33,256 nt of DNA from the IMG/VR virus record IMGVR_UViG_3300031759_000947, positions 1-33,256 of that record; one strand, 5' to 3'. Below the pieces are notes generated by a model, which saw only the letters and a program-made list of their open reading frames with translations, was not told the origin of the DNA and did no database searches. Below, in pieces: positions 13,646 to 33,256 of the stretch. The translations under genes were made by a program, and so were the position numbers. The first letter of the stretch is position 1; each line of letters starts with the position of its first letter. The stretch comes from a virus.

Positions 13646-13674
13646 ATTATAGCACCATGTGTAAATAATGTCAA
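13646..13674 (-). promoter_or_regulatory. Perfect sigma70 promoter for the tRNA-like gene
   Basis: Minus-strand TTGACA (13669-13674), a 17-bp spacer ending TGC and TATAAT (13646-13651). The -10 begins 6 bp before the mature 5' end of the tRNA-like gene. The -35 overlaps the start of the divergent radical SAM gene. Confidence 0.85.
13660..13667 (+). promoter_or_regulatory. Late-promoter-like octamer TGTAAATA
   Basis: A one-mismatch NATAAATA directly before the first ATG of the divergent radical SAM gene and 6 bases before its second ATG (13674). It lies in the spacer of the divergent sigma70 promoter. Confidence 0.45.
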
Positions 13675-14633
13675 TGCAATTCTCAACTATACCTTTCGCA
13701 AAAATACAACGTTTTGGACAGCAATCTATGTTGGATCGTCCATTATTTAACATTAGTTGGATCCTGGGTAGATTTTGTAACTACAAATGTTCCTACTGTT
13801 GGCCTTATGCTAGAAGCGATCAACCGGATCACCAAACCTTAGAAGTGTATAAATCCGTTATAGATGAAATCAAACGCCAGGCTAGGATAAATGGATTTGA
13901 AGAATTCCACTGGAGCTTCAGCGGAGGTGAGCCGACTGCTTATCGAGATTTGCTCAATTTGATCAAACATTTGGACGAAACCGAAAGCCCGTACCAAAGT
14001 ATCCATATGACAACTAATTTAAGTCCAGGATCAAAATGGTGGAAGCATTGGAGCGATGTTACAGACTGCCTACAGCGAAGAAGTATCACTGCCAGTTTTC
14101 ACGCAGAACATGCTAGAGAGCAAGAGTTTGGAGACAAATGTTTACAGTTAATGTATGAACAGGTACATGTAACAGTTAATCAAGTAATGGTTCCCAGTGT
14201 GTTTTATGAAACATTGGCTCGCTGTGAACGCCTTCGTGCTCGTGGAATCAACGTAACTCTCAAACCACAAAGCAATGATACTGCTACTGCTATTGTAGAA
14301 GGCTATACTCCTGATATGCTTACTATAATGCAAAATGACTTTGAACAGCAGGAAGGATATCAAATCAGGTTAACCGATGGTAATCAGAATTATTTTATAG
14401 ATCAAGCAGAACGATTCAACGCATTAGGGTTCAATAGTTTTACCAATTGGACTTGCAATGCAGGCTATCAAAGTGTTATAATAAAAGGTACTGAAGTTAA
14501 AAGAGCTTATAGTTGTCGGGATGAGCCATTAGGTACGATAGAAAAATTTACTTTGTTTTCCGCACCTCGTATATGTTCAACGCCTCGTTGCGTAAGTAGT
14601 GCAGACAGCAAAATACCAAAATGTATAAACTAA
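13668..14633 (+). CDS. Radical SAM enzyme, group A (C-terminal auxiliary cysteines)
   Basis: A 321-aa protein. The canonical C37-x3-C41-x2-C44 [4Fe-4S]/SAM site (CNYKCSYCWP) is followed by FSGGEPTAY. At the C-terminus four cysteines (C263 in WTCNAGY, C283, C303, C308) are spaced for an auxiliary cluster of twitch type. It shares WxCNAGxxS and the C-x4-C ending with the genes at 31380 and 32184, so they form one family. It would generate a 5'-deoxyadenosyl radical to modify an unknown substrate. A second ATG two codons in (13674) is a good alternative start because the promoter octamer abuts the first. The next gene overlaps by 13 bases. Confidence 0.88.
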   Translation: MSMQFSTIPFAKIQRFGQQSMLDRPLFNISWILGRFCNYKCSYCWPYARSDQPDHQTLEVYKSVIDEIKRQARINGFEEFHWSFSGGEPTAYRDLLNLIKHLDETESPYQSIHMTTNLSPGSKWWKHWSDVTDCLQRRSITASFHAEHAREQEFGDKCLQLMYEQVHVTVNQVMVPSVFYETLARCERLRARGINVTLKPQSNDTATAIVEGYTPDMLTIMQNDFEQQEGYQIRLTDGNQNYFIDQAERFNALGFNSFTNWTCNAGYQSVIIKGTEVKRAYSCRDEPLGTIEKFTLFSAPRICSTPRCVSSADSKIPKCIN

Positions 14634-15637
14634 CAGACATACGAGATATACACTTAGAAGTAACTACTAAATGTCAAGCACGTTGCCCTATGTGCCCAAG
14701 GCGTATCAACGGCGGCACATTGAATCCGCTCATGACATTAGTGGAAATAGATTTAGATACATTTAAAAAATGGTTCAGTAAAGATTTTATCTGTCAACTA
14801 GATAGTTTATTCATGTGCGGCAACTTGGGTGATCCTATCATTGCAGAAGATTGTTTGGCAATCTTTCAGTACCTCAGAACAACTAATCCTAATATACGTT
14901 TGAGTATGCATACAAACGGCAGTGCTAGAAGTACTCAATGGTGGGCAGAGTTAGCTAAATTAGATATTAGAGTAGTATTTGGTATTGACGGATTAGAAGA
15001 CACTCATTCTCTTTATAGAATAGACACAGATTGGAACAGAATTATAAAAAATGCAACTGCATTCATACAAGCAGGTGGCCATGCAGATTGGCACATGCTG
15101 GTGTTCAAACACAATGAGCATCAAGTAGAAGCATGTCGCCGTCTGTCTGCCCAGTTAGGATTTAATTTATTCCAAGTAAAACACACAACTCGATTTACTG
15201 ATATTAAATTTCCAGTATTAGATGATTCAGGCAAGACATTGTATCATTTATTGCCAAGTACCAAAACTGAAGAAATACTTCCAGAAGTTTTAAAGTATGC
15301 AAGAGATATGCCTATGGATCAAGTGGTAGACAAAAGTTCTTGTGTTATTACTTGCAAGGCAGTCAAATACAAACAAATTTATGTTGCGGCGTCTGGTAAT
15401 GTCGGTCCGTGTTGCTGGATGGACTTTAAAGAAAAATTACATAAACAATATACTCGTATCGATTATATGGACAAGATTGGAGAGTTTCCTAATCTACATG
15501 AACAATCTTTAGAGGACATTTTCAATTCGGGTTATTTTAATCGTATTGAAAACACCTGGGCTAACGACCCAGTTTATGAATGTGCCAAACAATGCGGCAA
15601 GTTCGACAAGTTAGGAACACAGTTTAATGCTAATTGA
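14621..15637 (+). CDS. Radical SAM enzyme, group B (SPASM-like)
   Basis: A 338-aa protein with C18-x3-C22-x2-C25 (CQARCPMC) at the N-terminus. The usual GGEP is replaced by CGNLGDP. The strand FGIDGLEDTHSLYRI and MHTNGSA agree with the radical SAM barrel. The C-terminal part has CKAVKYKQIYVAASGNVGPCC and ends YECAKQCGKF, a SPASM-like cysteine set for one or two auxiliary clusters. SPASM proteins mostly modify peptides. It is clearly paralogous to the gene at 26150 (same opening, GNxGDP, HTTRF). It is translationally coupled to the methyltransferase-like gene (11-base overlap). Confidence 0.88.
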   Translation: MYKLTDIRDIHLEVTTKCQARCPMCPRRINGGTLNPLMTLVEIDLDTFKKWFSKDFICQLDSLFMCGNLGDPIIAEDCLAIFQYLRTTNPNIRLSMHTNGSARSTQWWAELAKLDIRVVFGIDGLEDTHSLYRIDTDWNRIIKNATAFIQAGGHADWHMLVFKHNEHQVEACRRLSAQLGFNLFQVKHTTRFTDIKFPVLDDSGKTLYHLLPSTKTEEILPEVLKYARDMPMDQVVDKSSCVITCKAVKYKQIYVAASGNVGPCCWMDFKEKLHKQYTRIDYMDKIGEFPNLHEQSLEDIFNSGYFNRIENTWANDPVYECAKQCGKFDKLGTQFNAN

Positions 15638-16223
15638 TACAGAACATTTACATTATTGGATGTGTGCTATAAGAGATAGCGACAATCCAAGTCAAACTTT
15701 AGAAGCGTTTTGGCGCGGACAAATTAAAAGTAAAGAATGGCTGATAGAACATTTGAAATTAGAAATTGATCAGCCTGTTAATATTGACATATACGCAGGG
15801 TGGGTAGGTACTCTAGCCAGTATGATATTTCAAAGTGGAATGACTGTTGAAAAAATTAACAATATAGATTTAGATATAAACTGTAAATCTATATCCGAGA
15901 TGATGAACAAGATTGAACATATACAGGGCAGGTTTGAATTCATCCATGCTAATATGATAAACGTGCCTAGCGAGGCTGATGTTGTTATTAATACTAGCTG
16001 TGAACATATCACTCAAGAAGATTACGAGCTATGGTTGTCGGGTCTTAGAAAAGATAGTTTGATTGTGTTGCAAGGCAACAATTATGAGTTACCAGAACAC
16101 ATTAGAACTTCTACTAGTTTACAACATTTTGAAGAACAAAGTAAACTTGATGTCATATGGTCCGGTGAGTTAGAAACACAGATGTATACCCGCTATATGA
16201 TTATAGGCGAATTGCCTCTATAA
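15627..16223 (+). CDS. Class I SAM-dependent methyltransferase-like protein
   Basis: A 198-aa Rossmann-type protein. The first strand and SAM loop are NIDIYAGWVGTLASM, the second acidic strand is INNIDLD, and the fourth-strand motif VINTSCEHI is followed by LIVLQGNNYE. The classical GxGxG is reduced to AGWVGT, as in a phage methyltransferase family I recall with GWxGxLA and NTSCEH. The substrate is unknown. It shares an operon with two radical SAM enzymes and its 3' end overlaps the convergent desaturase gene by 23 bp. Confidence 0.68.
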   Translation: MLIDTEHLHYWMCAIRDSDNPSQTLEAFWRGQIKSKEWLIEHLKLEIDQPVNIDIYAGWVGTLASMIFQSGMTVEKINNIDLDINCKSISEMMNKIEHIQGRFEFIHANMINVPSEADVVINTSCEHITQEDYELWLSGLRKDSLIVLQGNNYELPEHIRTSTSLQHFEEQSKLDVIWSGELETQMYTRYMIIGELPL

Positions 16224-16935
16224 ACTCGCCAATTAAATCCCATTCCCACCAACGTTCTGTTAAACTAAAATTGCTGGGATAATGATGATGGTTATTATGC
16301 CATCCTTCTCCTAAACTAAGAATGTTAGCAATCCAACTATTGCTACTGCAATCGTCAGTATTGTAACTGCGATATCCTTGTGTGTGTCCTAGTACATTAA
16401 CTATGCTAGTTGTTTGTAGCGCCAAAGTTGCAGGTATAGCATATAAAAAAACTCCGAGCATTGGACTATACAGAAATAATGCAATTACTGGAATCAATAA
16501 AATTTTAAAATAATTATCGTGTATAAATCTATGTAACGGATCTCTTAATAGATCTTTTACAAAACTAACTGGGATCTTAGTTTCAGTATGCCCTATACCA
16601 GTCCATGCTTTGAATACTCCATCAGCTGGACTATGCGGGTCGTAGGGTTTGTCGGTAAATGTATGATGTGCTCTGTGAACACCGACCCAAGCTATACTGC
16701 TACCTACAGTAGCATATACACTTAACAGCAACATAGTTCTTTCCCAGAACTTAGATGTTTTATAAGACTTGTGTGTAAAGTATCTATGTAACCCTGCACT
16801 AATTCCAATAGGGCATAACAAAACAAAAACTAGATAACTCAACAACAAGTAATCAAACCCGTAATAACACAATCCTACGATAGATAAGAAAAGATTTAAA
16901 AATTGTAAGGTTCGTAACTTTTTGTTTAATGTCAT
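16201..16935 (-). CDS. Membrane fatty-acid desaturase (delta-9 type)
   Basis: A 244-aa membrane protein with all three histidine boxes in order: HRYFTH (H50, H55), HRAHH (H87, H90, H91) and HNNHH (H213, H216, H217), plus a further His in NVLGHTQG. Four hydrophobic segments (near residues 14-45, 65-85, 144-165, 170-190) match the acyl-CoA/acyl-lipid desaturase layout of roughly 240-320 aa. It inserts a double bond in a fatty acyl chain using a di-iron centre and needs an electron donor. It starts 4 bases inside the GNAT-like gene. A desaturase is rare in phages; a change in host membrane fluidity or an acyl decoration are possible roles. Confidence 0.92.
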   Translation of the reverse strand: MTLNKKLRTLQFLNLFLSIVGLCYYGFDYLLLSYLVFVLLCPIGISAGLHRYFTHKSYKTSKFWERTMLLLSVYATVGSSIAWVGVHRAHHTFTDKPYDPHSPADGVFKAWTGIGHTETKIPVSFVKDLLRDPLHRFIHDNYFKILLIPVIALFLYSPMLGVFLYAIPATLALQTTSIVNVLGHTQGYRSYNTDDCSSNSWIANILSLGEGWHNNHHHYPSNFSLTERWWEWDLIGEFIEAIRL

Positions 16936-17543
16936 GTACCTTCAGGCAATACTTGCCATTCCGCCTCGGTTATAATTTTTGGGTTCCATTCTTTAAATGT
17001 ACCTTTTTTTAATTCTGTATAAACAAAATTTTGACAACACTTTTGAACAAGCCATGGACATGTTTGCAAATAGCCATCTGCTTCAGTCCACATATTATTG
17101 CTGGATTCTTGCATCATTTTTTTCCAACGACTCCACCACCCCTTGTTTCCACGAGTACGATTTTGCATAGTGATAACATACAGATTGTAATCGTTAATAG
17201 CCATTAAAGGCTTAACTATACGTTCATGATGAAGTTTGTAAGATTCTATCATGTTGTGTCTACCGCAACGAAATTCTGGAAACAAATATAATCTGTTGGC
17301 TAATCGAGCTACGTTAGAAGGAAACATGCCATTATATGCACCTGCCATGATAATAGGTTTGTTAGTTTCTTTCTGATATACTACAACATAACCACTATGA
17401 TCTTCTATAACTAATTTTTCTTGAGTATAATTTTTCTGTAACCAATTATTCTCTTCTAAACAGATACTGCGTACACGTTCGAACTCATCACATGTTTCGT
17501 GATAAATTACGTGGTATGTATTTTCAACGGCATACGGATTCAA
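16932..17543 (-). CDS. Possible GNAT-type acyltransferase
   Basis: A 203-aa soluble protein. The central part has a strand pair GYVVVYQKETNKPIIMAGAY, then RLANRLYLFPEFR, a His/Arg-rich helix (ESYKLHHERIVKPL) and a strand YNLYVITMQNRTRGN. This order resembles the beta-strands and acceptor helix of GNAT N-acetyltransferases, but no clear Q/RxxGxG/A acetyl-CoA loop is visible, so the assignment is weak. It is coupled by ATGA overlaps to the TauD-like oxygenase upstream and the desaturase downstream, forming a three-gene unit. Confidence 0.5.
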   Translation of the reverse strand: MNPYAVENTYHVIYHETCDEFERVRSICLEENNWLQKNYTQEKLVIEDHSGYVVVYQKETNKPIIMAGAYNGMFPSNVARLANRLYLFPEFRCGRHNMIESYKLHHERIVKPLMAINDYNLYVITMQNRTRGNKGWWSRWKKMMQESSNNMWTEADGYLQTCPWLVQKCCQNFVYTELKKGTFKEWNPKIITEAEWQVLPEGT

Positions 17544-18616
17544 GACAAACTTCCGTCAGGCATTCTGTATCCTCTAACCTTGCATAAATCAACATAGTAA
17601 AGAATTTCTTTTTCGAATTGATCAGCAACATCTGGTTGGCTATAAGGCTGCCAAAAGTTGCTATGTAATTTAGTGTAGTCATGTGGGACACGATGGCACA
17701 CACGTTCTTTGATATCGCCTAATCTTCTGTGTAATGTAATACTGTTGTCAAACAAACACAAGTCGTGATCACTTTGATACCAGTGATCATAGATGTATTT
17801 GTCTACAAATAATTCTTTGTTAATCATAGCAAATATTTCATCGCTGGATTCTTTGCTCATGCCCTTAATACTATAAGCAGTATTAATACTATAATGCAGT
17901 CCTTTGATACCACCTGGACTTAAAATGGTCATTGGTATTTCGGTATCGTCTTCTGGACACATATTGGCATGCATGATTTCATCTTGATCTGCACGTAGAC
18001 CTGGATTAATAGCACCCGGGATAAATCTATGTAACAGTATCATTTCATCTAATTCGCTACGAAATGCATTGCTTACATTTTCATAATAATCAGTAGTTGT
18101 GATAAATCCTGTAGCAGATCCTATCATGTTCTGCACACCCAACAATGCAACGCCCGGAGTAAATGTCAGCGTACCCGATTCGTTACTATGCCATAGTAAT
18201 TCGCCTTCTGCAAACATCCCAAGTGCATTACCGTGTTCATCCTTGGCTCCACTCACTTTCATGAAACTTTTTCCGCCTGGAGTTTGATACTGTACTTTGG
18301 CAATAGCTTGTATACGTTCTCGATCCAATTCACTAATAATAGGATTATTTGCTTGTGCTTCTTTGAATAACCAATTCCATTGTTGACCATACTTCTTTTC
18401 CATATGGTAGCGTACTCCACTGCGTCTGGGACCAAACTTTTCACACCAGTCTGGTTGAGTTTCCCAAGGCATGTTACAGTCTCGTATGATTGTAACTAAG
18501 TTTTGTAAATGCAGTTGTCCGATTTCTAACCACTGGTCATCTGACATTGTAGTAAAGTCTACATCATCGATAAAGATTCCGAATCTTCCTAAGCCGGGTA
18601 TTTTTGTAATTTTCAT
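17540..18616 (-). CDS. TauD/TfdA-like oxygenase with an HxN in place of HxD
   Basis: A 358-aa TauD/TfdA-fold protein. The region LLWHSNESGTLTFTPGVALL aligns with the TauD segment holding the HxD iron ligands, but reads H143-S-N145: the carboxylate ligand is Asn. E146 is next and could shift. The distal H296 (NSITLHRRLGD) and R309 (VCHRV) that bind iron and 2-oxoglutarate are present. So it may be a normal hydroxylase using another ligand, a halogenase-like enzyme or an inactive relative. First gene of a unit with GNAT-like and desaturase genes. A CATAAATA octamer sits 7 bases before the ATG and no Shine-Dalgarno is seen. Confidence 0.82.
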   Translation of the reverse strand: MKITKIPGLGRFGIFIDDVDFTTMSDDQWLEIGQLHLQNLVTIIRDCNMPWETQPDWCEKFGPRRSGVRYHMEKKYGQQWNWLFKEAQANNPIISELDRERIQAIAKVQYQTPGGKSFMKVSGAKDEHGNALGMFAEGELLWHSNESGTLTFTPGVALLGVQNMIGSATGFITTTDYYENVSNAFRSELDEMILLHRFIPGAINPGLRADQDEIMHANMCPEDDTEIPMTILSPGGIKGLHYSINTAYSIKGMSKESSDEIFAMINKELFVDKYIYDHWYQSDHDLCLFDNSITLHRRLGDIKERVCHRVPHDYTKLHSNFWQPYSQPDVADQFEKEILYYVDLCKVRGYRMPDGSLS

Positions 18617-18623
18617 AGTACAA

Positions 18624-18631
18624 TATTTATG
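18624..18631 (-). promoter_or_regulatory. T4-type late promoter octamer CATAAATA
   Basis: Minus strand, 7 bases before the ATG of the TauD-like gene. If transcription starts about 6 bases downstream, as in T4, the message is essentially leaderless. Confidence 0.6.
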
Positions 18632-18651
18632 TTGTAGAGTTAAGGGCAGAA

Positions 18652-18659: not shown

Positions 18660-18677
18660 GAGCTATAGGGAGATTTT

Positions 18678-19373
18678 ATGCAGTTTGAATACTATTACAA
18701 TCGCGTACCAGGTGAAGAACCTTGTAGAAATAACTTAATCTATACTAGTTTAATTAGTAGTGATAGTAAAACATTTTGTATGTGGTATCATAATGATTCC
18801 GAATATCACCAGGGTAAGAATCAAGTAGTTGACCAAGAACTAATGGATGAAAAATGGAATCGAGAATTGCACTTCATTAGCAACATGGCTTGGCATAATC
18901 CAGACATGGTTCCAGCAATTAAAGAAGTAAATGTTCCAGAACGTAAAATTTATTTAGAAATTGGTGGTGTTGATTTTTGGCAACAAAGTTTAGACCGTAA
19001 TTGTTCGTTTAATGAAATACTACCAGACTGGCAGGATCAAATGCTAGCCATTATCCAAGCACACAAAGACAGAGGCTGGTACAAGTACAGTATGCACCCA
19101 AGCAGTTATTTTATTGTAGATGGCAAACTAAAAAGCATCAACTATTTTTTTACTTACAGTAGCAATGAACCCGATTTATCCATTGCAAGTGTACAAAGTC
19201 ACATTAGTTTACAAAGACAAGAACAGTTAAAAAAATATACAGATTCTATTAATTTAGATTGGAATACAAAATATCCGTTAAACGTAATACAACAACTTAC
19301 ATTTGATTGTTTTAGTAATATGTATCCAGAAGATTTTATTAAAAAGGCAAAACAAATATATGCGAGGGATTAA
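18678..19373 (+). CDS. Degenerate kinase-like protein, copy 1
   Basis: A 231-aa soluble protein paralogous to the gene at 22311. They share an opening with YYYN and an early Cys, KTFCMWYHNDSEYHQ, an acidic helix with NRELHFI, the strand RKIYLEIGG, LPDWQDQM, and MHPSSYFIVDGKLKSINYFF. This order resembles a small aminoglycoside/RIO-type kinase: N-lobe, helix-C glutamate (NRE), hinge, then a catalytic loop HPxxxxVDGKLxxIN. The catalytic Asp and the DFG-like Asp are not evident, so it would be an inactive or divergent kinase fold. That is inference. It leads an operon of oxygenases. Confidence 0.55.
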   Translation: MQFEYYYNRVPGEEPCRNNLIYTSLISSDSKTFCMWYHNDSEYHQGKNQVVDQELMDEKWNRELHFISNMAWHNPDMVPAIKEVNVPERKIYLEIGGVDFWQQSLDRNCSFNEILPDWQDQMLAIIQAHKDRGWYKYSMHPSSYFIVDGKLKSINYFFTYSSNEPDLSIASVQSHISLQRQEQLKKYTDSINLDWNTKYPLNVIQQLTFDCFSNMYPEDFIKKAKQIYARD

Positions 19374-20157
19374 CGGTCAGCCAATAGTAGACATGAGTCG
19401 TTTCTTAGATAGAGAAGCGTTTCAAAAACTTGAACCTGAAATTATAGCTGGGCTTGCAGAAACCAAGTTAGATGCATTTGAAGGTATATGGATTGATATT
19501 GAAAATCATCCTAACTCAACTAATCCGCAAGACTGGAAAACTATTCCGGACGGATTAAAGGATTTCTTGAAAGATCCAGATATTACAGATGACTCTAAAG
19601 CAAAGCAGTGGCACAATAATCTAGATAACGTAACTTCTAGAAATAAACTAATTAGATTTTTTAAATCAAAATACGGAGTGTATGATCCACTTCGTGTTTT
19701 TTACTTAACTACAAATGAAAACTTTGGCGGCACAACTATGCCCGATGCTAAACTACCCGAGCTTGCAGAAAAGTTTCCTTCAGTGATGGCATGGGCAAAT
19801 TCTTTAATTGGAACAATGTTTGATAGTATATTCCAGGTATGTATATTTTACGTTGAGCATGATGGAAGAACTGTAGAACATTATGACCTAGCACCAGACA
19901 GTGACTTGCGGTTGCCGTTAGATAAGGTGCATGATGATATTGATCAATTACCTCATTTTATACATTTACGTTCTGACACTAGTAGACCTTTCTATGTATT
20001 CGATGCTGATAACAAAGACAAGTATTTTGCTAATTCATGGGCATGCTGGTTTAATGCAAAAGAATGGCATTCGGCAGTTAGACATATTGCACCCGCTTGG
20101 TCACTACGTGTTGACGGATATTTTACAGATGCTATGAAAAAGGAATTAAATTTATGA
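19360..20157 (+). CDS. 2OG-Fe(II) oxygenase-like protein, tandem copy 1
   Basis: A 265-aa product from the ATG giving MRGINGQPIVDMSRFLDREA, which matches its downstream paralogue (MIKGINNIPYFDMSSHLDMQ). It overlaps the upstream gene by 14 bases. Iron ligands: H174-Y-D176 (VEHYDL) and distal H237 (KEWHSAV), with R250 in WSLRVDG as 2-oxoglutarate anchor. The strand FIHLRSDTSRPFYVF before the distal His is typical of Asp/Asn beta-hydroxylase-like enzymes. An N-terminal helical region of about 140 residues is shared only with the tandem copy. The substrate is unknown. Confidence 0.75.
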   Translation: MRGINGQPIVDMSRFLDREAFQKLEPEIIAGLAETKLDAFEGIWIDIENHPNSTNPQDWKTIPDGLKDFLKDPDITDDSKAKQWHNNLDNVTSRNKLIRFFKSKYGVYDPLRVFYLTTNENFGGTTMPDAKLPELAEKFPSVMAWANSLIGTMFDSIFQVCIFYVEHDGRTVEHYDLAPDSDLRLPLDKVHDDIDQLPHFIHLRSDTSRPFYVFDADNKDKYFANSWACWFNAKEWHSAVRHIAPAWSLRVDGYFTDAMKKELNL

Positions 20158-20957
20158 TTAAAGGCATTAATAATATTCCTTATTTTGATATGTCGTCACA
20201 TTTAGACATGCAAGGGTTTGACGCACTACAACAAGAAATACACGAAGGCTTTGCCGACGCAATGGAGTTTGCTAAAGAAGGCACTTGGATGAAACCAGGC
20301 TTTGATATTGCAGACATGAGTTATATCATGCATTGGAAACCAATTTACAAAGCTATGGAAGAATTTTTATCGTTACCAGATGATAATCCTATCAAACTAA
20401 AAGGAATGGAATATTATAAAGACTTTAAGAAATACAAGCAAAGAAACATCTTTACTCGTTATCTTAAAATTGCCATGGGTGCATACGATCCTTACACTTA
20501 CTATTTTTTGTGGGAAGAAGGTTCCTGGGATGACAGGACTGCACCGCGTAAACTAACAGAAGAAGCAAAGTATTTCCCTAATGTAGTTAAATGGGTAGAG
20601 CAAACTATTACCAACGGTATCTTTGAACATATCGGCCGTGTAATATTTTTTGTATGCGATGCCGACGGTATCAGTTGGGAACATAGAGATTTGAGCGGAG
20701 AACAAGGACCAAAAGGTTATAGTCCACATCGCAACGAGTTTATTCATATTCGTCCTAATTTAGAAAGACCTTTTTATCTATGGGATCCAGAAACTAAAAA
20801 CAAACATTATATCAATTGTCGTGCCGCATGGTGGAATGATCAAGATTGGCACGGCGGTGATCGTATTATGCGACAAAGCTATGGTTTACGAATTGACGGT
20901 AAGTTTACGGAAGAGTTTCGTAAAAAGTTAGGCATTGACAACTTGGAAAATTATTAA
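20154..20957 (+). CDS. 2OG-Fe(II) oxygenase-like protein, tandem copy 2
   Basis: A 267-aa paralogue of the preceding gene with complete ligands: H167-R-D169 (WEHRDL), distal H223 (QDWHGGD) and R236 in YGLRIDG. The block FIHIRPNLERPFYLW parallels FIHLRSDTSRPFYVF of copy 1. Similar length, opening and end show gene duplication, with divergence elsewhere (for example GAYDPYTYYFLW against GVYDPLRVFYLT). It is coupled by ATGA overlap with copy 1, and its stop overlaps the next ATG by one base. Confidence 0.78.
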   Translation: MIKGINNIPYFDMSSHLDMQGFDALQQEIHEGFADAMEFAKEGTWMKPGFDIADMSYIMHWKPIYKAMEEFLSLPDDNPIKLKGMEYYKDFKKYKQRNIFTRYLKIAMGAYDPYTYYFLWEEGSWDDRTAPRKLTEEAKYFPNVVKWVEQTITNGIFEHIGRVIFFVCDADGISWEHRDLSGEQGPKGYSPHRNEFIHIRPNLERPFYLWDPETKNKHYINCRAAWWNDQDWHGGDRIMRQSYGLRIDGKFTEEFRKKLGIDNLENY

Positions 20958-22955: not shown

Positions 22956-22961
22956 AGGCAA

Positions 22962-22969: not shown

Positions 22970-22986
22970 GGGCAGTTAACACCCAC

Positions 22987-22994: not shown

Positions 22995-22998
22995 GTTG

Positions 22999-26157: not shown

Positions 26158-27163
26158 AGTTAAAAGACTACATATAGAACTAACAGACAAGTGCCAGGCC
26201 GCTTGTCCTATGTGTGCCCGCAATCATAACGGGTACTCTACTCGTCCATTTATTAAAAATACTGAAATTAGTATTGAAGATTTTAAGCAATGGTTCCCAC
26301 CAGAGTTTTTACAAACACTTACTAACTTTTATAGTTCAGGTAATTACGGTGATCCGGCATTTGCTACAGATTGCCTTGAGATTTACAAATATATCAAAGA
26401 GTCAAACCCTGATATGTATTCGGCTATGCATACCAACGGTAGTTTACGTAAACCTGAATGGTGGGCAGAGTTAGCACAATATATAAACGAAGTTACTTTT
26501 GCAGTAGACGGATTTAAAGGCAAACACGAGCTATATAGACGTAATACAGATTTTGATAAAGTTATAGAAAATATCAAAGCGTTTGTTGCGGCTGGCGGTA
26601 AAGCAAATGTAAACAGTCTTGTGTTTGCACACAACGAGGATGATGTAGAAGAACTTGAAAAGTTTTTATTAGGAATAGGAGTATCGCAAGTACAGTTTAG
26701 ACACACAACTAGGTTTTATAGTGTTGTTAATTTTCCAGTCTTTGATAGTCATAACAAGTTTGTCTATAACTTACAACCTTCTAAAAATACAAAAGTAACA
26801 GAACCTTTAGAAAAATTATTAGATAGTGCAGTACGAGATGATGTAGTAGCTAAATCTGTTATTGATCCTAAATGTGTTAACTTAAATGAAGTATTTGTAG
26901 ACTGTAGAGGTAACTTGTTTCCATGCAGTTATTTAGGATCTGATTATGTAGAAGAACCTTTAACTGAAATCACAGTCATCAATGCTCTTAGAAATATATC
27001 TATATACACAACTAAACAACATCTTAACAAACTGACAGTTCCAAATTTATACGATGCTCCTATTACAGAAGTCTTAACAGATAATTTATGGAACAACTTA
27101 CCAGACCTGTGGTCTGATAAAAAGTGTCTTACTTGTGTTAATACTTGTTCAAAGAATAGTTAA
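26150..27163 (+). CDS. Radical SAM enzyme, group B (SPASM-like), TTG start
   Basis: A 337-aa paralogue of the gene at 14621. It opens with TTG (MYKVKRLHIELTDKCQAACP), 8 bases inside the preceding gene; the matching MYK opening of the paralogue supports this start. C15-x3-C19-x2-C22 binds the cluster. The GGEP is again replaced by SGNYGDP. The C-terminus has KCVNLNEVFVDCRGNLFPCSY and ends KKCLTCVNTCSKNS, a SPASM-like auxiliary set. HTTRF and MHTNGS are shared with the paralogue. The 3' end overlaps the convergent hydroxylase gene by 15 bp. Confidence 0.87.
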   Translation: MYKVKRLHIELTDKCQAACPMCARNHNGYSTRPFIKNTEISIEDFKQWFPPEFLQTLTNFYSSGNYGDPAFATDCLEIYKYIKESNPDMYSAMHTNGSLRKPEWWAELAQYINEVTFAVDGFKGKHELYRRNTDFDKVIENIKAFVAAGGKANVNSLVFAHNEDDVEELEKFLLGIGVSQVQFRHTTRFYSVVNFPVFDSHNKFVYNLQPSKNTKVTEPLEKLLDSAVRDDVVAKSVIDPKCVNLNEVFVDCRGNLFPCSYLGSDYVEEPLTEITVINALRNISIYTTKQHLNKLTVPNLYDAPITEVLTDNLWNNLPDLWSDKKCLTCVNTCSKNS

Positions 27164-27832
27164 TTTGTAATCTGCGGTAAGAAGCTGTTTAAGTTCATCA
27201 AGCAGTTCTCTTTCTAATTTAAACGTCAAACTAAATGTAGTATGAGCAAAGTCTGCTAATTTATAATTTTTATCAGCATGATTTAAGAAAGGACTGACCA
27301 AGTTATCAAATTTATACCTAAACTGATGTTGTTCATAAGCTGGTCCAATCATTATAGAAACTAAATCTACAGGTTGGATATTACGACGTAATGGTTCTCT
27401 TACTACAAGTTGTAAACGAGATCTAGCTCCAAAATTAGAAGCAACGTGTCGACAACTTGCATCCATATAAGCCCAACAGTTATCTCTAACACATTCGTGC
27501 ATAACTTTCTTATCTAAATCAATAAGGTATGACTGTTCGCCGGTTAAATTCAAATGCCAACGATTATCTATGTCGGCGTGTGATTGATAACTCTCCCCAG
27601 GCTTTAATGTAATAATACGTGCTTCTCCTATAGGAGCAGGCAAAGTCATTAAGATTCGTTCCCATGCTGTATCTTTATACTCGTCCTTAATAGTCCAAGC
27701 ATCATAAAAGAAATTGCCATTATGTTTATTCAATACAACAACCTCATCTGTTATAGGGTATTCAGCAAGAGCTTGCTCGATTAGTCCAGCAGGACATCTC
27801 CAGCGTTGTTTGGTAACCATATCGTATTTCAT
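27149..27832 (-). CDS. Aspartyl/asparaginyl hydroxylase-like oxygenase
   Basis: A 227-aa protein with ARIITLKPGESYQSHADIDN: H85-A-D87. The distal H129 is in ASCRHVASNFG, and R137 or R139 (GARSRLQLVV) anchors 2-oxoglutarate. The strand order LNLTGEQSYLIDL and the position of the ligands match the Asp/Asn hydroxylase family. The first 70 and last 80 residues are not assigned. It is coupled by ATGA to the radical SAM gene upstream, so the pair probably acts on the same substrate. Confidence 0.8.
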   Translation of the reverse strand: MKYDMVTKQRWRCPAGLIEQALAEYPITDEVVVLNKHNGNFFYDAWTIKDEYKDTAWERILMTLPAPIGEARIITLKPGESYQSHADIDNRWHLNLTGEQSYLIDLDKKVMHECVRDNCWAYMDASCRHVASNFGARSRLQLVVREPLRRNIQPVDLVSIMIGPAYEQHQFRYKFDNLVSPFLNHADKNYKLADFAHTTFSLTFKLERELLDELKQLLTADYKLTIL

Positions 27833-29244
27833 ATTAAATGTCCTAGCTCTGGAAACGTGGCTTTAAAGTCTGTACCACGTTGAGCATCTAATGTCATTAT
27901 ATATTCTTTAAAGTCAGGAAGCAAGTTAGTATGATCCTCTGCGTCCATCCAATCTAATATACCTTCCCAACGTTTCCATCCGTAAGGATTAGTTTCCCAA
28001 AATTCTTTGTCCTGTGTATAGTTCTTCCATAACCATTCTTGTAAATCCGCAAATAGTTGACGCACTTCTGCTTTGTCTTCTTTAGGAAGTACACGCAGAC
28101 TTAACCATGTAGGAATCCATAACAAGTGTACACCTACTAGTCCGCCTCCCATAACTTGTCCGGCCGCATTAGTATCCATGTTAATCTTTTTGAAGTTACT
28201 CTTAACTTTCCATTTAATAAAATCAGGAACGTGTTTGATGTTTAGTATCTGTACTGCAAGTGCAATGTTAGTTTGTATGTTATCAGGAGCATTATCTAAC
28301 GTGTGCAAATTTTGCACAATGGTATCCCAGTCTAAGGGATAGCGAATATAATGCCCACGAGTTTCCATACCATCCAAACTAAATCCAACTTTAACTTTAA
28401 GGAACTTACTCCACAGGTTGATAATATCTTGATTAATGAGTGTGCCGTTTGTGTTGTATCGTAAGATAATTTTATTGGCATATCCCCTAGCAACAATCTC
28501 TTCTAAGAATCTGCGATGCTCTTTAATCAGTAAAGGTTCGCCTCCAGCAAAGTACAGTTGTTTGATGTTAGGAATTTGATCGTAGACTTCTTCCCAGAAC
28601 TTGGGATTTTCATGCCATGTGTTGTTAAACTCTGTTTGCTCCCAACTCATTTGTTTTTTAATTAAGGAGCTGGCAAAAATTGGAAATACTTTTTTATGTT
28701 CGGGTACCCACATACTACTATCGTGTGGACTACACATGACACACTTTAAGTTACAAGTATGTCCCAATCTTAAATCTAAGTATTGTAATTTATAAGGAAC
28801 TGATCCATCCTCTTTAGTTTGAGCAATAAGTTCTGGGATATCTATACCTTCTTTAAACCATGTACCTGTTTCCCAAATACGTTTACTGGCAATACCTTGT
28901 TGTTCTTCTTTAAAACATTTGGTACAACTTGCGGGAATTTTTCCTTCCAACATAGTCTTACGCACTGATTTCATATAGTCGTTATTGAACGCTTCAGTTG
29001 GCAAATTGTGTGCAAAGTTAGCAGGCTTGCCATCTTCCATCTTAACTAAGCCAACAGTATAGTCGCCTGTATCCGCACCCGATGCGTTTGCAACACAGCA
29101 TATACGCATATCGCCATTCGGACGAGTTGCCAAATGTATCCAGGGCAGTACACAAAAACTATGACTTTTTGAAACGTCTTCCAATTGACGTTGCCACTTG
29201 CCTAACTGAGAATCCTCCGGCTGTAACCAAAATATTTTATCCAT
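27829..29244 (-). CDS. Radical SAM enzyme, group C (N-terminal auxiliary cysteines)
   Basis: A 471-aa protein, longest of its group. Pre-barrel cysteines: C31 (FCVLPWIHLAT), C49-C50 (RICCVANASG), C107-x2-C110 (SCTKCFKEEQQG). Canonical site C164-x3-C168-x2-C171 (CNLKCVMCSP) follows, with YFAGGEPLLI, NTNGT and VGFSLDGM, all normal. An extended C-terminal region (LPKEDKAEVRQLFADLQEWL) has no further cluster. I chose ATG 29244 (MDKIFWLQPE) over an ATG ten codons upstream because it lies at the end of an inverted repeat symmetrical with the divergent gene's start. It is paired with the hydroxylase at 27149. Confidence 0.9.
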   Translation of the reverse strand: MDKIFWLQPEDSQLGKWQRQLEDVSKSHSFCVLPWIHLATRPNGDMRICCVANASGADTGDYTVGLVKMEDGKPANFAHNLPTEAFNNDYMKSVRKTMLEGKIPASCTKCFKEEQQGIASKRIWETGTWFKEGIDIPELIAQTKEDGSVPYKLQYLDLRLGHTCNLKCVMCSPHDSSMWVPEHKKVFPIFASSLIKKQMSWEQTEFNNTWHENPKFWEEVYDQIPNIKQLYFAGGEPLLIKEHRRFLEEIVARGYANKIILRYNTNGTLINQDIINLWSKFLKVKVGFSLDGMETRGHYIRYPLDWDTIVQNLHTLDNAPDNIQTNIALAVQILNIKHVPDFIKWKVKSNFKKINMDTNAAGQVMGGGLVGVHLLWIPTWLSLRVLPKEDKAEVRQLFADLQEWLWKNYTQDKEFWETNPYGWKRWEGILDWMDAEDHTNLLPDFKEYIMTLDAQRGTDFKATFPELGHLI

Positions 29245-29286
29245 GAAATATTTAACCTTATTAAGTGCATACATAAATATTTCATG
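29242..29286. repeat. Perfect 13-bp inverted repeat around divergent starts
   Basis: CATGAAATATTTA (29242-29254) and TAAATATTTCATG (29274-29286) are exact reverse complements separated by 19 bp. The outer ends of the arms are the ATG codons of the two divergent genes (minus at 29244, plus at 29284). Each arm carries a TAAATA late-promoter core (GTTAAATA minus, CATAAATA plus) 4 bases before its ATG. This is either a shared bidirectional promoter or an operator. Confidence 0.75.
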
Positions 29287-30132
29287 AATCGTTTTAAAAT
29301 TGCTCCGGCATACTCAGAAGAATATTTGGAAATTGAAAGACCGCAGCCATTATCTGATAAGCATATTGAAACCCTAATAGAGGAGCTGTTACCTCACAGA
29401 TGGGGATACGAAGTAAGCGATTTATTATATACACAATTTAAAAAAGAAATGACTGATTGGGTATTAAGATCCAAACTTAATAATATAACAGGTTTAGATA
29501 ATTTTAATCGAGTAGATATTATTAATGGGTGTACACAATTTATTGATTCGATATACATGCAATGCCAGCCTCAAATACTGCAAGGTGATTACAGATACCA
29601 TCACAGGTTAGGCAATTGGGATACACAAGTAGGATTGTTAAAAGAAGGTATTCCTCTTATTATAGCCATGCCATTTCCTAGTACAGGAGATGTACACGCA
29701 AACATGAAGGAGATATTAGATGAAGCGGGAGACAAAGGTATTAGTGTACATGTGGACGGCGCTTGGTATACTTGCTGTCGCGGAATTGACTTTGATGTAT
29801 CTCATCCAGCAATTAAGTCGGTCGCTATAAGTTTAAGTAAAGGACTAGGACTAGGTTGGAATAGAATTGGATTACGTTGGACTAAAGAAACAACCCCAGA
29901 CGCTATTACCATAATGAACGACTTTAGTATGAACCTTCGTGCCCCTGCCATGATTGGTTTACATTTCATTAAACAGCTAGAGCCAGATTACTTATGGAAA
30001 AAGTACGGAGATGTGTATAATAAAATTTGTAAAGATTTTAATTTAACACCAACCAAAAGCATTTATCTAGCATTGAAAGATAATCAACCTGTGGGCGTAA
30101 GCCCTTTAATAAGATATGTCGCAGAGCATTAA
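29284..30132 (+). CDS. PLP-dependent aminotransferase-like protein (fold type I)
   Basis: A 282-aa protein, short for a fold type I enzyme (commonly 350-450). The PLP residues are visible: D158 in VHVDGAWY (pyridine-nitrogen aspartate) and K186 in SLSKGLGLGWNRIG (Schiff-base lysine), with an arginine-containing loop after it. NGCTQFIDSIYMQ and DYRYHHRLGNWD fit the substrate and phosphate region. It would transaminate, decarboxylate or otherwise process an amino-acid-like substrate. The small domain seems reduced. It overlaps the radical SAM gene by 17 bases, so the two may act in sequence. Confidence 0.8.
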   Translation: MNRFKIAPAYSEEYLEIERPQPLSDKHIETLIEELLPHRWGYEVSDLLYTQFKKEMTDWVLRSKLNNITGLDNFNRVDIINGCTQFIDSIYMQCQPQILQGDYRYHHRLGNWDTQVGLLKEGIPLIIAMPFPSTGDVHANMKEILDEAGDKGISVHVDGAWYTCCRGIDFDVSHPAIKSVAISLSKGLGLGWNRIGLRWTKETTPDAITIMNDFSMNLRAPAMIGLHFIKQLEPDYLWKKYGDVYNKICKDFNLTPTKSIYLALKDNQPVGVSPLIRYVAEH

Positions 30133-31387
30133 TCCTCCAACATTTTGTATGCATCCATTTACAGGATTAGCCACCAGAGAGGATGGAGCTATCTGTGCCT
30201 GCTGTCGTAGTCACCCTGTTGGATTTATACAAGAACAATCACTTGAAGAAATTTGGAATAACGATACTATGAAACGTATTCGTAAACAAGTACTTACGGG
30301 CTATCGTCCTCCTGAATGCGAACCTTGTTTTAGTCTAGAAGATCAAGGAGTAGAAAGTCTGCGGTTACGTCATGTGAGAGGAAAAATTCCAGAAGCACGT
30401 ATTAAACTGTATCCTGATGCTGTTGGAAAAATGCGTAGTGATTATTCTATGCCTTTTGAGATTCCTACAATGGAACTTAAACTAAACAATCTTTGTAATC
30501 TTAAATGCCGTATGTGTCATCCTATGGACAGTACTGCTTGGAACGATTGGGCAGAAATTAAAGAATTTTATAAAAAAGAAAACAATATCATGTATGCTAT
30601 TGTAGAGCAACATGATTTAGAACGCAAACCCTATTTAGATAAATTTCAAGATAATCCTGAATGGTGGAATAATTTAGAAAAATTATTACCTTATTTTAGA
30701 AGAGTAGAGTTTGCAGGCGGGGAACCGTTAATGGATCCACAGCACTATAGAATTTTAGATATGTTGAAACCCTACGGGCATCAAATAGAACTAAAGTATG
30801 CTACTAATGGCACAACATTAGGAATTAATAAAGGAAGAACAATTCATGACTATTGGCCTTATTTTAGATCAGTTGCCGTTAACGTCTCTCTTGACGGCAT
30901 TGGCAACGTTTACAATTACATTCGTGGTAACAGCGATTGGCAAGAAGTTATATCTAACGTCAAAGAAATAAAGAAAATTTCAAATATTACAAGAGTAGTG
31001 GGTGCATGTACTGTACAAGTTAGCAATGTACTTGTGCTAGATAAAATAATAGAATACTTTTTAGATGACTTAGGTATCATATTTCATACTCATAGGGTTA
31101 CACACCCCAATGTATTATCTGCACAAGTATTGCCAAGAGAATTGCAAGTACTGGCTATTACAAAACTACAGGCAATTAAAGAACATGTAGCAGACTTTAA
31201 GCTAATAAAAGAAACACCCGGACTGTTGGAATATACGCTAGGGCAAATACAGGACAACATTAATTTTTTAATGGCAAAGGATGAAAGTCACTTGTGGAAA
31301 GATTGTATAGATTTTAATCAAAGACTTGATGTAACACGCAATCAAAGTTTTATAGACATAACTCCGGAATTTAAGAATTATGTTTAA
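30116..31387 (+). CDS. Radical SAM enzyme, group C (N-terminal auxiliary cysteines)
   Basis: A 423-aa protein. Pre-barrel cysteines are C11 (FCMHPFTGLAT), C27/C29/C30 (AICACCRSH), C68-x2-C71 (ECEPCFSLEDQG). The canonical site is C127-x3-C131-x2-C134 (CNLKCRMC), with EFAGGEPLMDP, ATNGT and VNVSLDG. The FCxxPF...CC...CxxC...E..G series is shared with the genes at 22999 and 27829, marking one paralogous set with a permuted auxiliary-cluster position. The start overlaps the aminotransferase-like gene by 17 bases, and its 3' end overlaps the next gene by 8. Confidence 0.9.
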   Translation: MSQSINPPTFCMHPFTGLATREDGAICACCRSHPVGFIQEQSLEEIWNNDTMKRIRKQVLTGYRPPECEPCFSLEDQGVESLRLRHVRGKIPEARIKLYPDAVGKMRSDYSMPFEIPTMELKLNNLCNLKCRMCHPMDSTAWNDWAEIKEFYKKENNIMYAIVEQHDLERKPYLDKFQDNPEWWNNLEKLLPYFRRVEFAGGEPLMDPQHYRILDMLKPYGHQIELKYATNGTTLGINKGRTIHDYWPYFRSVAVNVSLDGIGNVYNYIRGNSDWQEVISNVKEIKKISNITRVVGACTVQVSNVLVLDKIIEYFLDDLGIIFHTHRVTHPNVLSAQVLPRELQVLAITKLQAIKEHVADFKLIKETPGLLEYTLGQIQDNINFLMAKDESHLWKDCIDFNQRLDVTRNQSFIDITPEFKNYV

Positions 31388-32270
31388 GGTTACCAGTTTA
31401 TACGAGCACCATCCAAACACTATTAAAATAGAATGGAATTTGGGCAAACGTTGTAATTTCGATTGTAGCTATTGCCCTAGTAGTATTCATGATAACTCAA
31501 GTCCGCATACTGATATTGAAATTCTTAAAACAACTGTAGATAAACTTGTTGCATTAAACAAACCCGTACGTTTAAGTTTTACAGGTGGCGAGCCTACTGT
31601 ACATCCTAAATTTGAAGAGCTAATAAATTATTGTAAGAATCAAGGAGTCAGTTGGATAAGTGTAACAACTAACGGCACGCTACCCTTTGAATTTTATAGT
31701 AAACAACGTGTTGACCAATATGTGTTTAGTGTACACATGGAATATGACGTTAGACGTGTATTAGATACAATAGTCAACACCAAAGAACTATTCCCAGGAA
31801 AGATATTAGTGCATGTCATGGCACATCAAGACCATATGAAACGTACTAGATACATTGCAGGTGCGTTGTCCGCAAGTAATATCCCTCATGCTGTTCGTAG
31901 AGTTCGTTGGACGCAAGGTGATCACGATTTGTTCGATGACATGCGATACAATGCAGAAGACTTAGAATGGGTTAAAGAATATGAAGCTACAGTAGAAGCA
32001 AACTGTGTTATAGATGATGATAAGAAAATGCATGCCAATGATATTATCAAACTGCATTTTAACAAATACAAAGACTGGTCATGTAACGCAGGTATAGAAA
32101 GCCTAATGATAAATTGGGATGGAGAAGTACATCGTGCTACGTGCCGAGTAGGCGGTAGTTTGGGTAACATTTATCAAGGAACTCTAGTGGTGCCTGATAA
32201 CCCTGTCATCTGTGATCGAAACTTCTGTACCTGTGCCGCTGATATCCCGCTTACTAAGATCAAACTTTGA
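31380..32270 (+). CDS. Radical SAM enzyme, group A (C-terminal auxiliary cysteines)
   Basis: A 296-aa protein with C25-x3-C29-x2-C32 (CNFDCSYCPSS), FTGGEPTVHP and TTNGT. The C-terminal auxiliary cysteines are C235 (WSCNAGIES), C255, C278, C283 and C285 (CDRNFCTC). It matches the partial gene at 32184 in WSCNxGxES, xWDGEV, and the CxxxxCxC ending. Both genes converge, and their homologous 3' ends overlap by 87 bp. It is coupled by 8-base overlap to the preceding radical SAM gene. Confidence 0.88.
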   Translation: MFKVTSLYEHHPNTIKIEWNLGKRCNFDCSYCPSSIHDNSSPHTDIEILKTTVDKLVALNKPVRLSFTGGEPTVHPKFEELINYCKNQGVSWISVTTNGTLPFEFYSKQRVDQYVFSVHMEYDVRRVLDTIVNTKELFPGKILVHVMAHQDHMKRTRYIAGALSASNIPHAVRRVRWTQGDHDLFDDMRYNAEDLEWVKEYEATVEANCVIDDDKKMHANDIIKLHFNKYKDWSCNAGIESLMINWDGEVHRATCRVGGSLGNIYQGTLVVPDNPVICDRNFCTCAADIPLTKIKL

Positions 32271-33256
32271 TATATGTGTTTCTGTTCCGCAGAAACAATT
32301 ATTTTGATTACACACAATAGATTTTAAATCTGGGTGAAAATTTTGTACAAAATTGCTGTCTAAGATGTTATAACGATAATCCAACCCATATAATGTTTCC
32401 TGGCATGATCCTACTACTTCGCCGTCCCAATGTATGTAGACACTTTCCAATCCAATATTACAACTCCATCCTTTAAAATTATTCCATCCGTTCAAAATAT
32501 AAGTTTCTGGCCTAGCTTTAATAGTAGTGCCGTTGTCTAAATAAGCGGTACTTTCAAACAATTTTATTTCACCACCTATCAATAATTTAATATTTTTGAA
32601 TATCCATGTCCAACCAGGCATACGTTTTAAAGCATTTTTAAAATAACTACGTTGTTCTGGTGTGTAACGTTTTTTATTTTCGTCCACAATTTCAATCACA
32701 TTTGATGCAACATGCTCGGGTTCAATAACTTCAGTCGCAGTTAAAAACCAACTGTGTTTGCTGGTCTTCATATACTCTAACACACGAACACTTTCATCCC
32801 ACAGGTTAGGATCCATTAATACTTTGACGCTGGTCTTCTTACCTAATTCATAAAGCGTATCTGCTACAGCTATCATGTGATCTGGATTTGCTTCTGCTAC
32901 GTGATAACTTAGTGTAGCATTGTCTATTAAATGTCCGTATTCTTTCCACCAACGTAGTGTACGTGACCCATTTGAAATTACTGTAAAATATATGTTGTGT
33001 CTTTTTTTAAGTTGTTCGATAAAGTATCCTAAGTCTTTCCAAAGTGTAGGTTCGCCTCCCCCGACTTTTAAATGGAAACGTGTCTTATTTAAGTGTGTTT
33101 TATAATATGTAAACATGTGATCAAAATTATCAATAATTTGATCAATGTTTCCAGGACTTTTAAAACTGCCATCGTGGCTACCCGGCCAACAGTACCTGCA
33201 ATTATAGTTGCAAACATTATTGACCATCCAACGAACTTCTAATATATTGTCTTTTT
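32184..33256 (-). CDS. Radical SAM enzyme, group A, 5' end outside window
   Basis: At least 357 codons. The frame is open to the right edge and upstream residues (ILEVRWMV) belong to the first strand of the barrel, so the real start lies beyond the window and the internal ATG at 33227 is not the start. The site is VCNYNCRYCWP, with GGGEPTLW. The C-terminus has WSCNIGLESVYIHWDGEV, a Cys about 20 residues on, and CNQNNCFC, as in the group A relatives. About 25 residues after the point where its paralogues end are encoded antisense to the neighbour's auxiliary-cluster codons. Confidence 0.85.
   Translation of the reverse strand, partial: KDNILEVRWMVNNVCNYNCRYCWPGSHDGSFKSPGNIDQIIDNFDHMFTYYKTHLNKTRFHLKVGGGEPTLWKDLGYFIEQLKKRHNIYFTVISNGSRTLRWWKEYGHLIDNATLSYHVAEANPDHMIAVADTLYELGKKTSVKVLMDPNLWDESVRVLEYMKTSKHSWFLTATEVIEPEHVASNVIEIVDENKKRYTPEQRSYFKNALKRMPGWTWIFKNIKLLIGGEIKLFESTAYLDNGTTIKARPETYILNGWNNFKGWSCNIGLESVYIHWDGEVVGSCQETLYGLDYRYNILDSNFVQNFHPDLKSIVCNQNNCFCGTETHISKFDLSKRDISGTGTEVSITDDRVIRHH

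Follow-up and report, generated by a model that had tools for sequence, protein, structure and literature searches.

The right-hand part of the viral record IMGVR_UViG_3300031759_000947 carries one dense block of 22 genes, here called the island, in which radical S-adenosylmethionine (SAM) proteins are combined with oxygenases of the 2-oxoglutarate (2OG) type and with other tailoring enzymes. The window analysed here is the complete record of 33,256 bases, which is probably a fragment, and the island, with genes on both strands, starts at 13.7 kb and reaches the right-hand end. We found the island to be a recurrent system of T4-like phages with a conserved core of gene families in a reshuffled order. 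Gene identities, conservation, packing and co-occurrence were observed, and fibre or sheath genes were frequently found next to the island. We tentatively propose that the enzymes modify the phage's own fibre or tail proteins, in this reading probably late in infection, a possibility that we would still place short of probable.

All eight genes that an earlier note, made from the sequence alone, had named as radical SAM genes matched the Pfam family Radical_SAM (PF04055) above its curated cut-off, with 34.6-55.7 bits. Pfam-A was run on 20 of the 22 island genes and g21 and g22 were compared with PF04055 alone; PHROGs was run on all 22 and NCBIfam on 16. The cut-off of the model NF033640 (twitch domain-containing radical SAM) was passed by g13, g18 and g20 and missed by g01, g02, g16, g21 and g22, which reached 29-57 bits. 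Among distinct full-length relatives the CxxxCxxC motif was intact throughout for g20 (94/94), g18 (90/90), g21 (89/89), g22 (63/63), g02/g16 (126/126) and g13 (19/19), and in 59 of 60 for g01. The mutual identity of g13, g18 and g20 was 23-27%, whereas g20 kept at least 70% identity across 80 phages, and we concluded that the three are old and distinct paralogues. When the structural model of g20 was searched with Foldseek, the single match at E≤1e-3 was a peptide-bound structure of the maturase SuiB, a peptide-modifying SPASM enzyme (5e-4), and it was weak, with a TM score of 0.31. In a second look by Z score, the nucleoside enzyme BlsE (10.6), anSME (10.1) and the peptide maturase SkfB (10.0) were level.

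The seven oxygenases proposed in the earlier note were supported to differing degrees, four by Pfam and three by conserved ligands, homology or fold. For g09 no match was detected in Pfam or by sequence in the PDB; its HRD...H...R set was invariant across 14 aligned sequences, and its model, of moderate confidence (pLDDT 66.5), gave 18 Foldseek matches at E≤1e-3, all of them non-haem Fe oxygenases with low TM scores of about 0.3-0.4. The family profiles of g11 and g14 likewise found no sequence match in the PDB. A loose HxD..H regular expression was retained in relatives of g09 (99/100), g11 (101/101), g14 (34/34) and g17 (81/81), and less well in the TauD genes g10 (12/14) and g06 (6/12). The start of g08 is probably the ATG at 19360 rather than the TTG at 19303 of the open reading frame (ORF) list. 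All features are collected in Table 1.

Table 1. Genes of the island and its left neighbour in the window, grouped by kind; the last column gives the number of the 80 best-scoring g20 loci that hold the family.
Gene	Positions	Strand	Assignment	Evidence	Loci (of 80)
g01	13668..14633	+	radical SAM protein	Radical_SAM 44.7 bits	64
g02	14621..15637	+	radical SAM with SPASM	Pfam Radical_SAM and SPASM above cut-off	76 (with g16)
g13	22999..24231	+	N-terminal SPASM/twitch radical SAM	NF033640 285 bits, cut-off 170; Pfam	
g16	26150..27163	+	radical SAM, g02 paralogue (37%)	Pfam 53.7 bits	76 (with g02)
g18	27829..29274	-	N-terminal twitch radical SAM	NF033640 402 bits	75
g20	30116..31387	+	N-terminal twitch radical SAM, core gene	NF033640 330 bits; model pLDDT 83	80
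g21	31380..32270	+	radical SAM with C-terminal Cys cluster	Pfam; alignment	79
g22	32184..33254	-	radical SAM, cut by window edge	Pfam 50.4 bits	60
g06	17540..18616	-	TauD-family 2OG oxygenase	PF02668 54.2 bits; phrog_24590 6.8e-102	
g08	19360..20157	+	2OG oxygenase-like, g09 paralogue	32% to g09, 1e-41	
g09	20154..20957	+	2OG oxygenase (fold level)	HRD..H..R; Foldseek; relatives in 413 viral stretches	51
g10	20957..21820	+	TauD-family 2OG oxygenase	PF02668 83.7 bits	
g11	21799..22314	-	2OG oxygenase-like	HxD..H invariant in 14 aligned sequences	51
g14	24228..24938	+	Asp/Asn-hydroxylase family oxygenase	PF05118 49.7 bits	
g17	27149..27832	-	Asp/Asn-hydroxylase family oxygenase	PF05118 23.1 bits, cut-off 22.6 (barely passes)	69
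g03	15627..16223	+	methyltransferase-like by eye	no Pfam match	76
g04	16201..16935	-	fatty acid desaturase family	PF00487 57.1 bits	
g05	16932..17543	-	GNAT-like by eye	no Pfam match	
g07	18678..19373	+	kinase-fold protein, catalytic Asp replaced	family profile against PDB, TTK 8e-6; alignment	62 (with g12)
g12	22311..22961	-	kinase-fold protein, g07 family	family profile against PDB, TTK 8e-6	62 (with g07)
g15	24925..26157	+	glycosyltransferase-like label, unconfirmed	adjoins g14	
g19	29284..30132	+	short protein like pyridoxal phosphate (PLP)-dependent enzymes	SLSKG invariant	67
IF-1	12375..12596	-	translation factor, left neighbour; context, not pathway	PF01176 66.9 bits	

Recurrence was followed from two genes. 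The search with g20 gave 194 related IMG/VR stretches and the search with g09 gave 413; from each the best 80 loci (70-100% identity for g20) were examined, chosen by score and not at random, reaching about 10 kb to either side of the island gene and in some cases near-identical to each other. The pairs g02/g16 and g07/g12 were each counted as one family. Gene order and strand varied between contigs and genes came and went singly. Further families were met in the g20 relatives, namely a second oxygenase-like family (45/80), a PP-loop-like protein (37/80, Pfam just below cut-off), a radical SAM protein with a B12-binding-like domain (36/80, the B12 score below cut-off) and a tetraether-synthase-like radical SAM protein (25/80; PDB 7tol, 2.8e-31); the profile of family c16 gave no sequence match in the PDB. 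From the best 80 g09 loci, 22 shared DNA with the g20 set. The other 58, found independently through the oxygenase, held the kinase-like family in all 58, at least one radical SAM gene in 57, at least three in 52 and g20 in 36. The homologues were not scattered singly, and the co-occurrence that the earlier note had proposed to look for was strongly supported. One of the 80 g09 loci, L165, was without a radical SAM gene in its 12 kb.

The radical SAM genes were also tightly clustered within longer records. They lay 10 of 10 within 18 kb of a 191-kb record, 8 of 10 within 20 kb of a 120-kb record (G003) and 10 of 14 within 27 kb of a 270-kb record. Under uniform random placement a cluster as tight was obtained in none of 200,000 trials for the 191-kb record, and at 0.0006 and 1e-5 for the 120-kb and 270-kb records. 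Between the window and G003 the ratio of non-synonymous to synonymous change (pN/pS) was 0.14 over 20 of the 22 genes (77 synonymous and 43 non-synonymous differences in this one genome pair; g17 was omitted as too divergent and g22 as unmatched). Judged from the sequences, the island genes appear to be under purifying selection and look functional. The identity of g17 to G003 was 83-85% and that of its neighbours at least 98%, which suggests a recent exchange of this single gene since the split from G003. A second group of viruses, reached through the marker g19, held bigger arrays; one 71.7-kb record of this group contained 11 NF033640 members above cut-off, compared with none in 14 control genomes. 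Among 61 representatives of the other island genes, methyltransferases, oxygenases and radical SAM proteins led, and sugar-nucleotide families occurred singly, as judged from the 25 families listed out of 54.

The packing left little room for a precursor peptide. Of the 21 junctions between island genes in the window, 18 are overlaps and the widest gap measures 61 nt, in agreement with the statement of the earlier note that no gap inside the island would hold a RiPP precursor gene. In 109 related loci, 155 of 1,574 successive junctions had a gap of at least 60 nt, mostly filled by other genes, and 27 had such a gap without a gene of at least 130 aa inside. Short ORFs of 60-129 aa between island genes came to 25 in total, the commonest family occurring in 5 loci; ORFs below 60 aa were not called in the relatives. 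For gene pairs in direct contact, 1,437 in all, the median gap was -8 nt and 85% overlapped, figures that exaggerate the overlap because genes were called by a greedy longest-ORF rule. A precursor-peptide gene adjacent to the enzymes, as expected of a cluster for a ribosomally synthesised and post-translationally modified peptide (RiPP), was thus not found, given the small gaps of the window and the lack of a recurrent ORF of 60-129 aa. In the 20 island genes scanned, no Pfam family of exporters, peptidases, nonribosomal peptide synthetases, polyketide synthases or ATP-grasp enzymes was detected, nor one of the RiPP recognition element (PqqD/RRE), a domain that Pfam frequently misses. The block holds only tailoring enzymes, without a chain builder or a precursor, and we therefore concluded that it acts on something made elsewhere. 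A protein of 115-116 aa lies between island genes in 4 loci (L129, at 7339-7689, L130, L160 and L176). By eye it resembles AdoMet decarboxylase, and 1 of the 61 representatives matches that family.

Nearly the whole window is collinear with G003, in three blocks at 98.0-98.8% identity. The stretches 4302-4740 and 9805-9859 are unaligned to G003 and lie between blocks of 98% identity. Of the 30 loci that hold the gene of translation factor IF-1, 27 have it no more than 3 kb away from an island gene, and the left flank of the window also encodes ClpP, a Band-7 protein and a phage DNA ligase. The earlier note had named host DNA misjoined during assembly as a way to be wrong; this was rejected on the collinearity with G003 and the closeness of IF-1. 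The marks of T4-like phages, namely Gp23, a T4-type terminase and a contractile-tail sheath, were found in relatives only: G001 holds T4-type terminase and tail sheath genes, and gp23 is present in 3 of 12 records, mostly fragments, and in neither the window nor G003. In cellular genome contigs a scan with the g20 profile gave 43 pattern matches of which none was confirmed, by a short-peptide pre-filter that could miss distant relatives. With the g19 profile and the same kind of pre-filter 1 of 33 was confirmed, on a contig filed under Chloroflexi (L206, PAAV01000055.1, G011:C1, 161 kb). This contig of a metagenome-assembled genome (MAG) carries gp23, T4-type replication genes and tail genes, and we concluded that it is a misbinned phage. 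It also has a large radical SAM array.

In G003, g22 is followed after 55 nt by the gene of a 659-aa protein with an Mtd_N domain, resembling a fibre protein. The reading of the earlier note as a phage-borne, tightly packed set of tailoring enzymes was supported; its statement that the island continues past the right edge found no support in this nearest relative, where g22 is the last island gene before the fibre-like gene. The island probably ends there; the G003 contig itself ends about 0.2 kb past the fibre-like gene, and more of the island may follow beyond that gene. Mtd_N-like fibre ORFs were found in 13 cases by regular expression, that of G003 being confirmed by Pfam, and each of the 13 is at most 1.3 kb away from an island gene, a partly redundant set (L168, L172 and L173 agree in position and L151 and L155 in distance). 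In the lineage of the window the island lies between the IF-1 neighbourhood and, where seen, an Mtd_N fibre-like gene. In the second group 11 sheath ORFs were detected, every one no more than 0.4 kb from an island gene. Because the loci extend about 10 kb to each side, short distances to flanking genes are in part a consequence of that reach.

Islands of several lineages border on fibre or sheath genes, which is consistent with the virion-protein substrate and the late expression that the earlier note had suggested. We infer late expression, a protein substrate and a benefit to the phage as follows. The enzymes would be a virus-owned chemical tailoring set, held by T4-like phages as a reshuffling array of cassettes beside virion genes, and their targets would be side chains of pre-existing phage proteins, chiefly fibres or tail proteins. 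The twitch/SPASM radical SAM proteins would generate carbon radicals that lead to crosslinks, to epimers or to the attachment of groups, the 2OG oxygenases would carry out hydroxylations, and the PLP-type, methyl-, acyl- and other enzymes would act afterwards. The particle surface would be altered, with a possible gain in adsorption range or stability. In favour of this proposal we counted the missing chain builder and recurrent precursor, the nearness to virion genes, the peptide-type relatives of the radical SAM proteins (the NF033640 members and the nearest folds to g20), the Asp/Asn-hydroxylase families, the purifying selection and the lead of methyltransferases, oxygenases and radical SAM proteins among the other island genes. 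As to the supply of the radical SAM enzymes, an Fe-S carrier was found in 6 of 11 records, which is weak support because such carriers are common in phages.

Several observations weigh against a virion substrate. A position beside virion genes is no proof of one, and hypervariable regions collect varied genes. In G001 and G002, both of the window lineage, over 130 kb separate the sheath gene from the island, and virion genes beyond about 10 kb are invisible in the loci. The fibre-like protein beside the island of G003 is almost without Cys or Lys. Collagen-like repeats, an attractive target for hydroxylation, were found in 2 of 5 records, and G003 is not one of the two. Families of lipid type are present (the desaturase, and the tetraether-synthase-like radical SAM protein of the relatives), and the nucleoside enzyme BlsE tops the second look at g20, less than 1 Z from the peptide enzymes. 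Collagen-like fibres as a general substrate were rejected, the Gly-X-Y runs being confined to G009 and the MAG contig, with none in G001, G002 or G003. At 89.4-98.9 kb of that contig (G011:C1, L211) lie the genes of two fibre-like proteins, whose Gly-X-Y runs count 58 and 57 triplets, followed by an Asp/Asn-hydroxylase-like gene and radical SAM-like genes.

A more far-reaching form of the virion proposal is unlikely in our judgement: that the radical and oxygen-dependent enzymes form a recombining library by which receptor-binding proteins are diversified once translated, as a chemical counterpart of a diversity-generating retroelement, the phages varying side-chain chemistry and not sequence in order to track host receptors. 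It predicts that the island borders Mtd_N fibre-like genes, which is frequent in the window lineage.

The main rival is that the island remodels the envelope of the infected cell (lipid A, O-antigen or membrane lipids) and so blocks superinfection or the sticking of progeny to debris, and we regard it as somewhat unlikely. It owes its rank to the desaturase, GDSL-like and tetraether-synthase-like families and to PagP near the radical SAM genes of Vibrio phage K566. The desaturase stands beside an acyltransferase-like gene (by eye) in all 9 loci that hold both, the GDSL-like genes (Pfam below cut-off) occur in relatives, and LpxO is a member of the Asp/Asn-hydroxylase family. Yet the families present in at least 64 of the 80 loci include no confirmed glycosyltransferase, sugar-nucleotide or lipid A enzyme, and the desaturase was found in 7 of the 80 only. 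Genes related to lipopolysaccharide (LPS) lie in the host-recognition clusters of pelagimyophages, where two related phages differ by radical SAM cassettes (PMC7029224). A diffusible peptide or small molecule, built during infection from a precursor encoded elsewhere or derived from the host, would suit a tailoring-rich set with SPASM radical SAM proteins, a B12-binding-like radical SAM protein, TauD and PLP-type enzymes, the structural neighbours BlsE, SkfB and SuiB, and the Trp halogenase, carbamoyltransferase and class III aminotransferase of G001. Against it stand the missing precursor gene, which neither fits the gaps of the window nor recurs among the called ORFs of relatives, the absence of the exporter and assembly families named above from the genes scanned, and the gain and loss of single genes, unlike an ordered pathway; we consider such a product unlikely.

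Two further explanations are very improbable in our view. One is an auxiliary metabolic role, in which the radical SAM proteins aid the host in making pyrroloquinoline quinone (PQQ), haem or another cofactor. A PQQ reading has been published for T4-like viruses of methylotrophs in Lake Baikal (PMC7678222), and ahbD has been annotated in Baltic viruses by authors who call the inference speculative (PMC9301287). Among the matches listed for the eight radical SAM proteins, however, the PqqE and haem b synthase models scored below 40 bits against equivalog cut-offs of 381 and 500, SAM synthetase was found in none of 11 records, and the oxygenase partners would be left unexplained. The other, equally remote, is hypermodification of DNA or RNA bases. 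QueD- and QueE-like genes were seen by eye in G003, and the PP-loop-like protein is present in 37 of the 80 islands; but the Que-like genes of G003 lie outside the island and, to our knowledge, twitch/SPASM radical SAM proteins, Asp/Asn hydroxylases and TauD proteins are not usual base-modification families.

A tblastn search of cultured phages with g20 was without a match at 1e-5. A divergent g20 gave 15 records at E≤10, the best being Vibrio phages K566 and K567 (6e-11, 22%); 17 records matched g21 at 1e-3, with Campylobacter phages making up 11, and g10 gave 5, from Prochlorococcus and Pelagibacter phages. A similar content was seen in the cultured Pelagibacter phage Mosig EXVC030M (MT647606, 54.7-67.6 kb), which has, like the island, radical SAM-type genes (three, annotated as MoaA-like), an Asp_Arg_Hydrox gene, a fatty acid desaturase, a short aminotransferase, TauD, a methylase and an acetyltransferase; the cluster is one small gene away from a tail-fibre gene. 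Its desaturase, PLP protein, hydroxylase and acetyltransferase have 42-49% identical counterparts in uncultured islands of the second group, and through these intermediates the window-type island is linked to the Mosig genes. Hidden Markov models (HMMs) of the island families matched 7 ORFs in the 20.7 kb examined. Mosig differs in having fewer radical SAM genes, no NF033640 member in the whole record, and a carbamoyltransferase, a nitroreductase and a peroxiredoxin. A text search of its genome paper (PMC7892664) found no mention of the subject terms.

Campylobacter phages provide a parallel. Timms 2010 counted 11 and 12 radical SAM proteins in two of them and described for CP220 and CPt10 an exchangeable module of 10-12 genes, five of them radical SAM genes, in a virulent phage, for which the authors put forward a dispensable advantage to metabolism when oxygen is low (PMC2853527). 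The island likewise has several radical SAM genes together in a block that can be exchanged between T4-like phages, and in CP220 a PAAR gene and a possible baseplate lysozyme precede the start of the module by about 2 kb. The amidinotransferase-like protein of CP220 is 30% identical to one in the related island L200, and none is among the annotations of the window's island. In the 20 kb of CP220 examined the island HMMs matched no oxygenase, and CP220 gave no NF033640 match above cut-off. Vibrio phage K566 (OZ196521) has five radical SAM ORFs matched by island HMMs, two of them above the NF033640 cut-off, and, unlike the island, gave no oxygenase match in the 31 kb examined. The host recognition cluster of pelagimyophages (PMC7029224) is a hypervariable island among structural genes, described as tail fibres with LPS-type genes and, in the text consulted, without a conserved core of radical SAM proteins and oxygenases; against a simple parallel, freshwater members lack radical SAM genes, and the core genes shared by all members include an Asp/Asn hydroxylase. 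The RiPP SPASM maturases SuiB and SkfB and also anSME are among the nearest folds to g20, by the weak Foldseek match in the case of SuiB, whereas in the island the SPASM/twitch domain is N-terminal and a precursor gene is lacking.

In the open-access literature, which was seen in part and mostly does not cover subscription papers and preprints, radical SAM genes in phages are described and a conserved radical SAM-oxygenase core was not found. Radical SAM modules in T4-like phages are known from Campylobacter phages CP220 and CPt10 and from pelagimyophages. What is new is a core of conserved families, their combination with 2OG oxygenases and the homology to the Mosig cluster; compared with the published cases, we regard the present island as a new and richer variant. 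Phage radical SAM arrays have been in print since 2010 with their function untested, and the conserved core, the paired oxygenases, the position beside virion genes and the homologues in a cultured SAR11 phage turn this into a testable problem. If the substrate is indeed a virion protein, these phages would possess protein-modifying radical enzymes at an uncommon density, which would be of use in the discovery of enzymes and in explaining host range. For some viral radical SAM genes the published readings as PQQ or haem enzymes may need revising.

The remaining island genes were assigned with varying success. The desaturase label given to g04 was confirmed by Pfam, and the methyltransferase-like (g03) and GNAT-like (g05) labels stay unconfirmed. 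The glycosyltransferase-like label of g15 was not supported, as no Pfam match above cut-off was obtained and the PDB gave a weak match to a phage tail protein (0.0065). The kinase-like labels of g07 and g12 were upheld for the fold, by a remote match, and not for catalysis, since the alignment, read by eye, shows the catalytic Asp of the HRD motif replaced; both are perhaps pseudokinases. For g19 no Pfam match above cut-off and nothing credible in a PDB profile search was obtained; the SLSKG and HxDxAW motifs were invariant in 15 aligned sequences, and the lysine motif was kept in 64 of 69 distinct full-length relatives. Some neighbours were constant: g04 and g05 adjoin in 9 of 9 loci with both, g14 and g15 in 18 of 18, and the g07/g12 family stands beside the g11 family in 49 of 70. 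Kinase-fold proteins without the catalytic Asp accompany g09 in all 80 of its loci and often adjoin oxygenases, and a kinase-fold protein and an oxygenase may possibly form an adaptor pair. The halogenase, carbamoyltransferase and aminotransferase genes of G001 were seen in loci L089 and L099, and at 185-190 kb of G002 three consecutive halogenase-like genes and a DnaK-like gene were recognised by eye.

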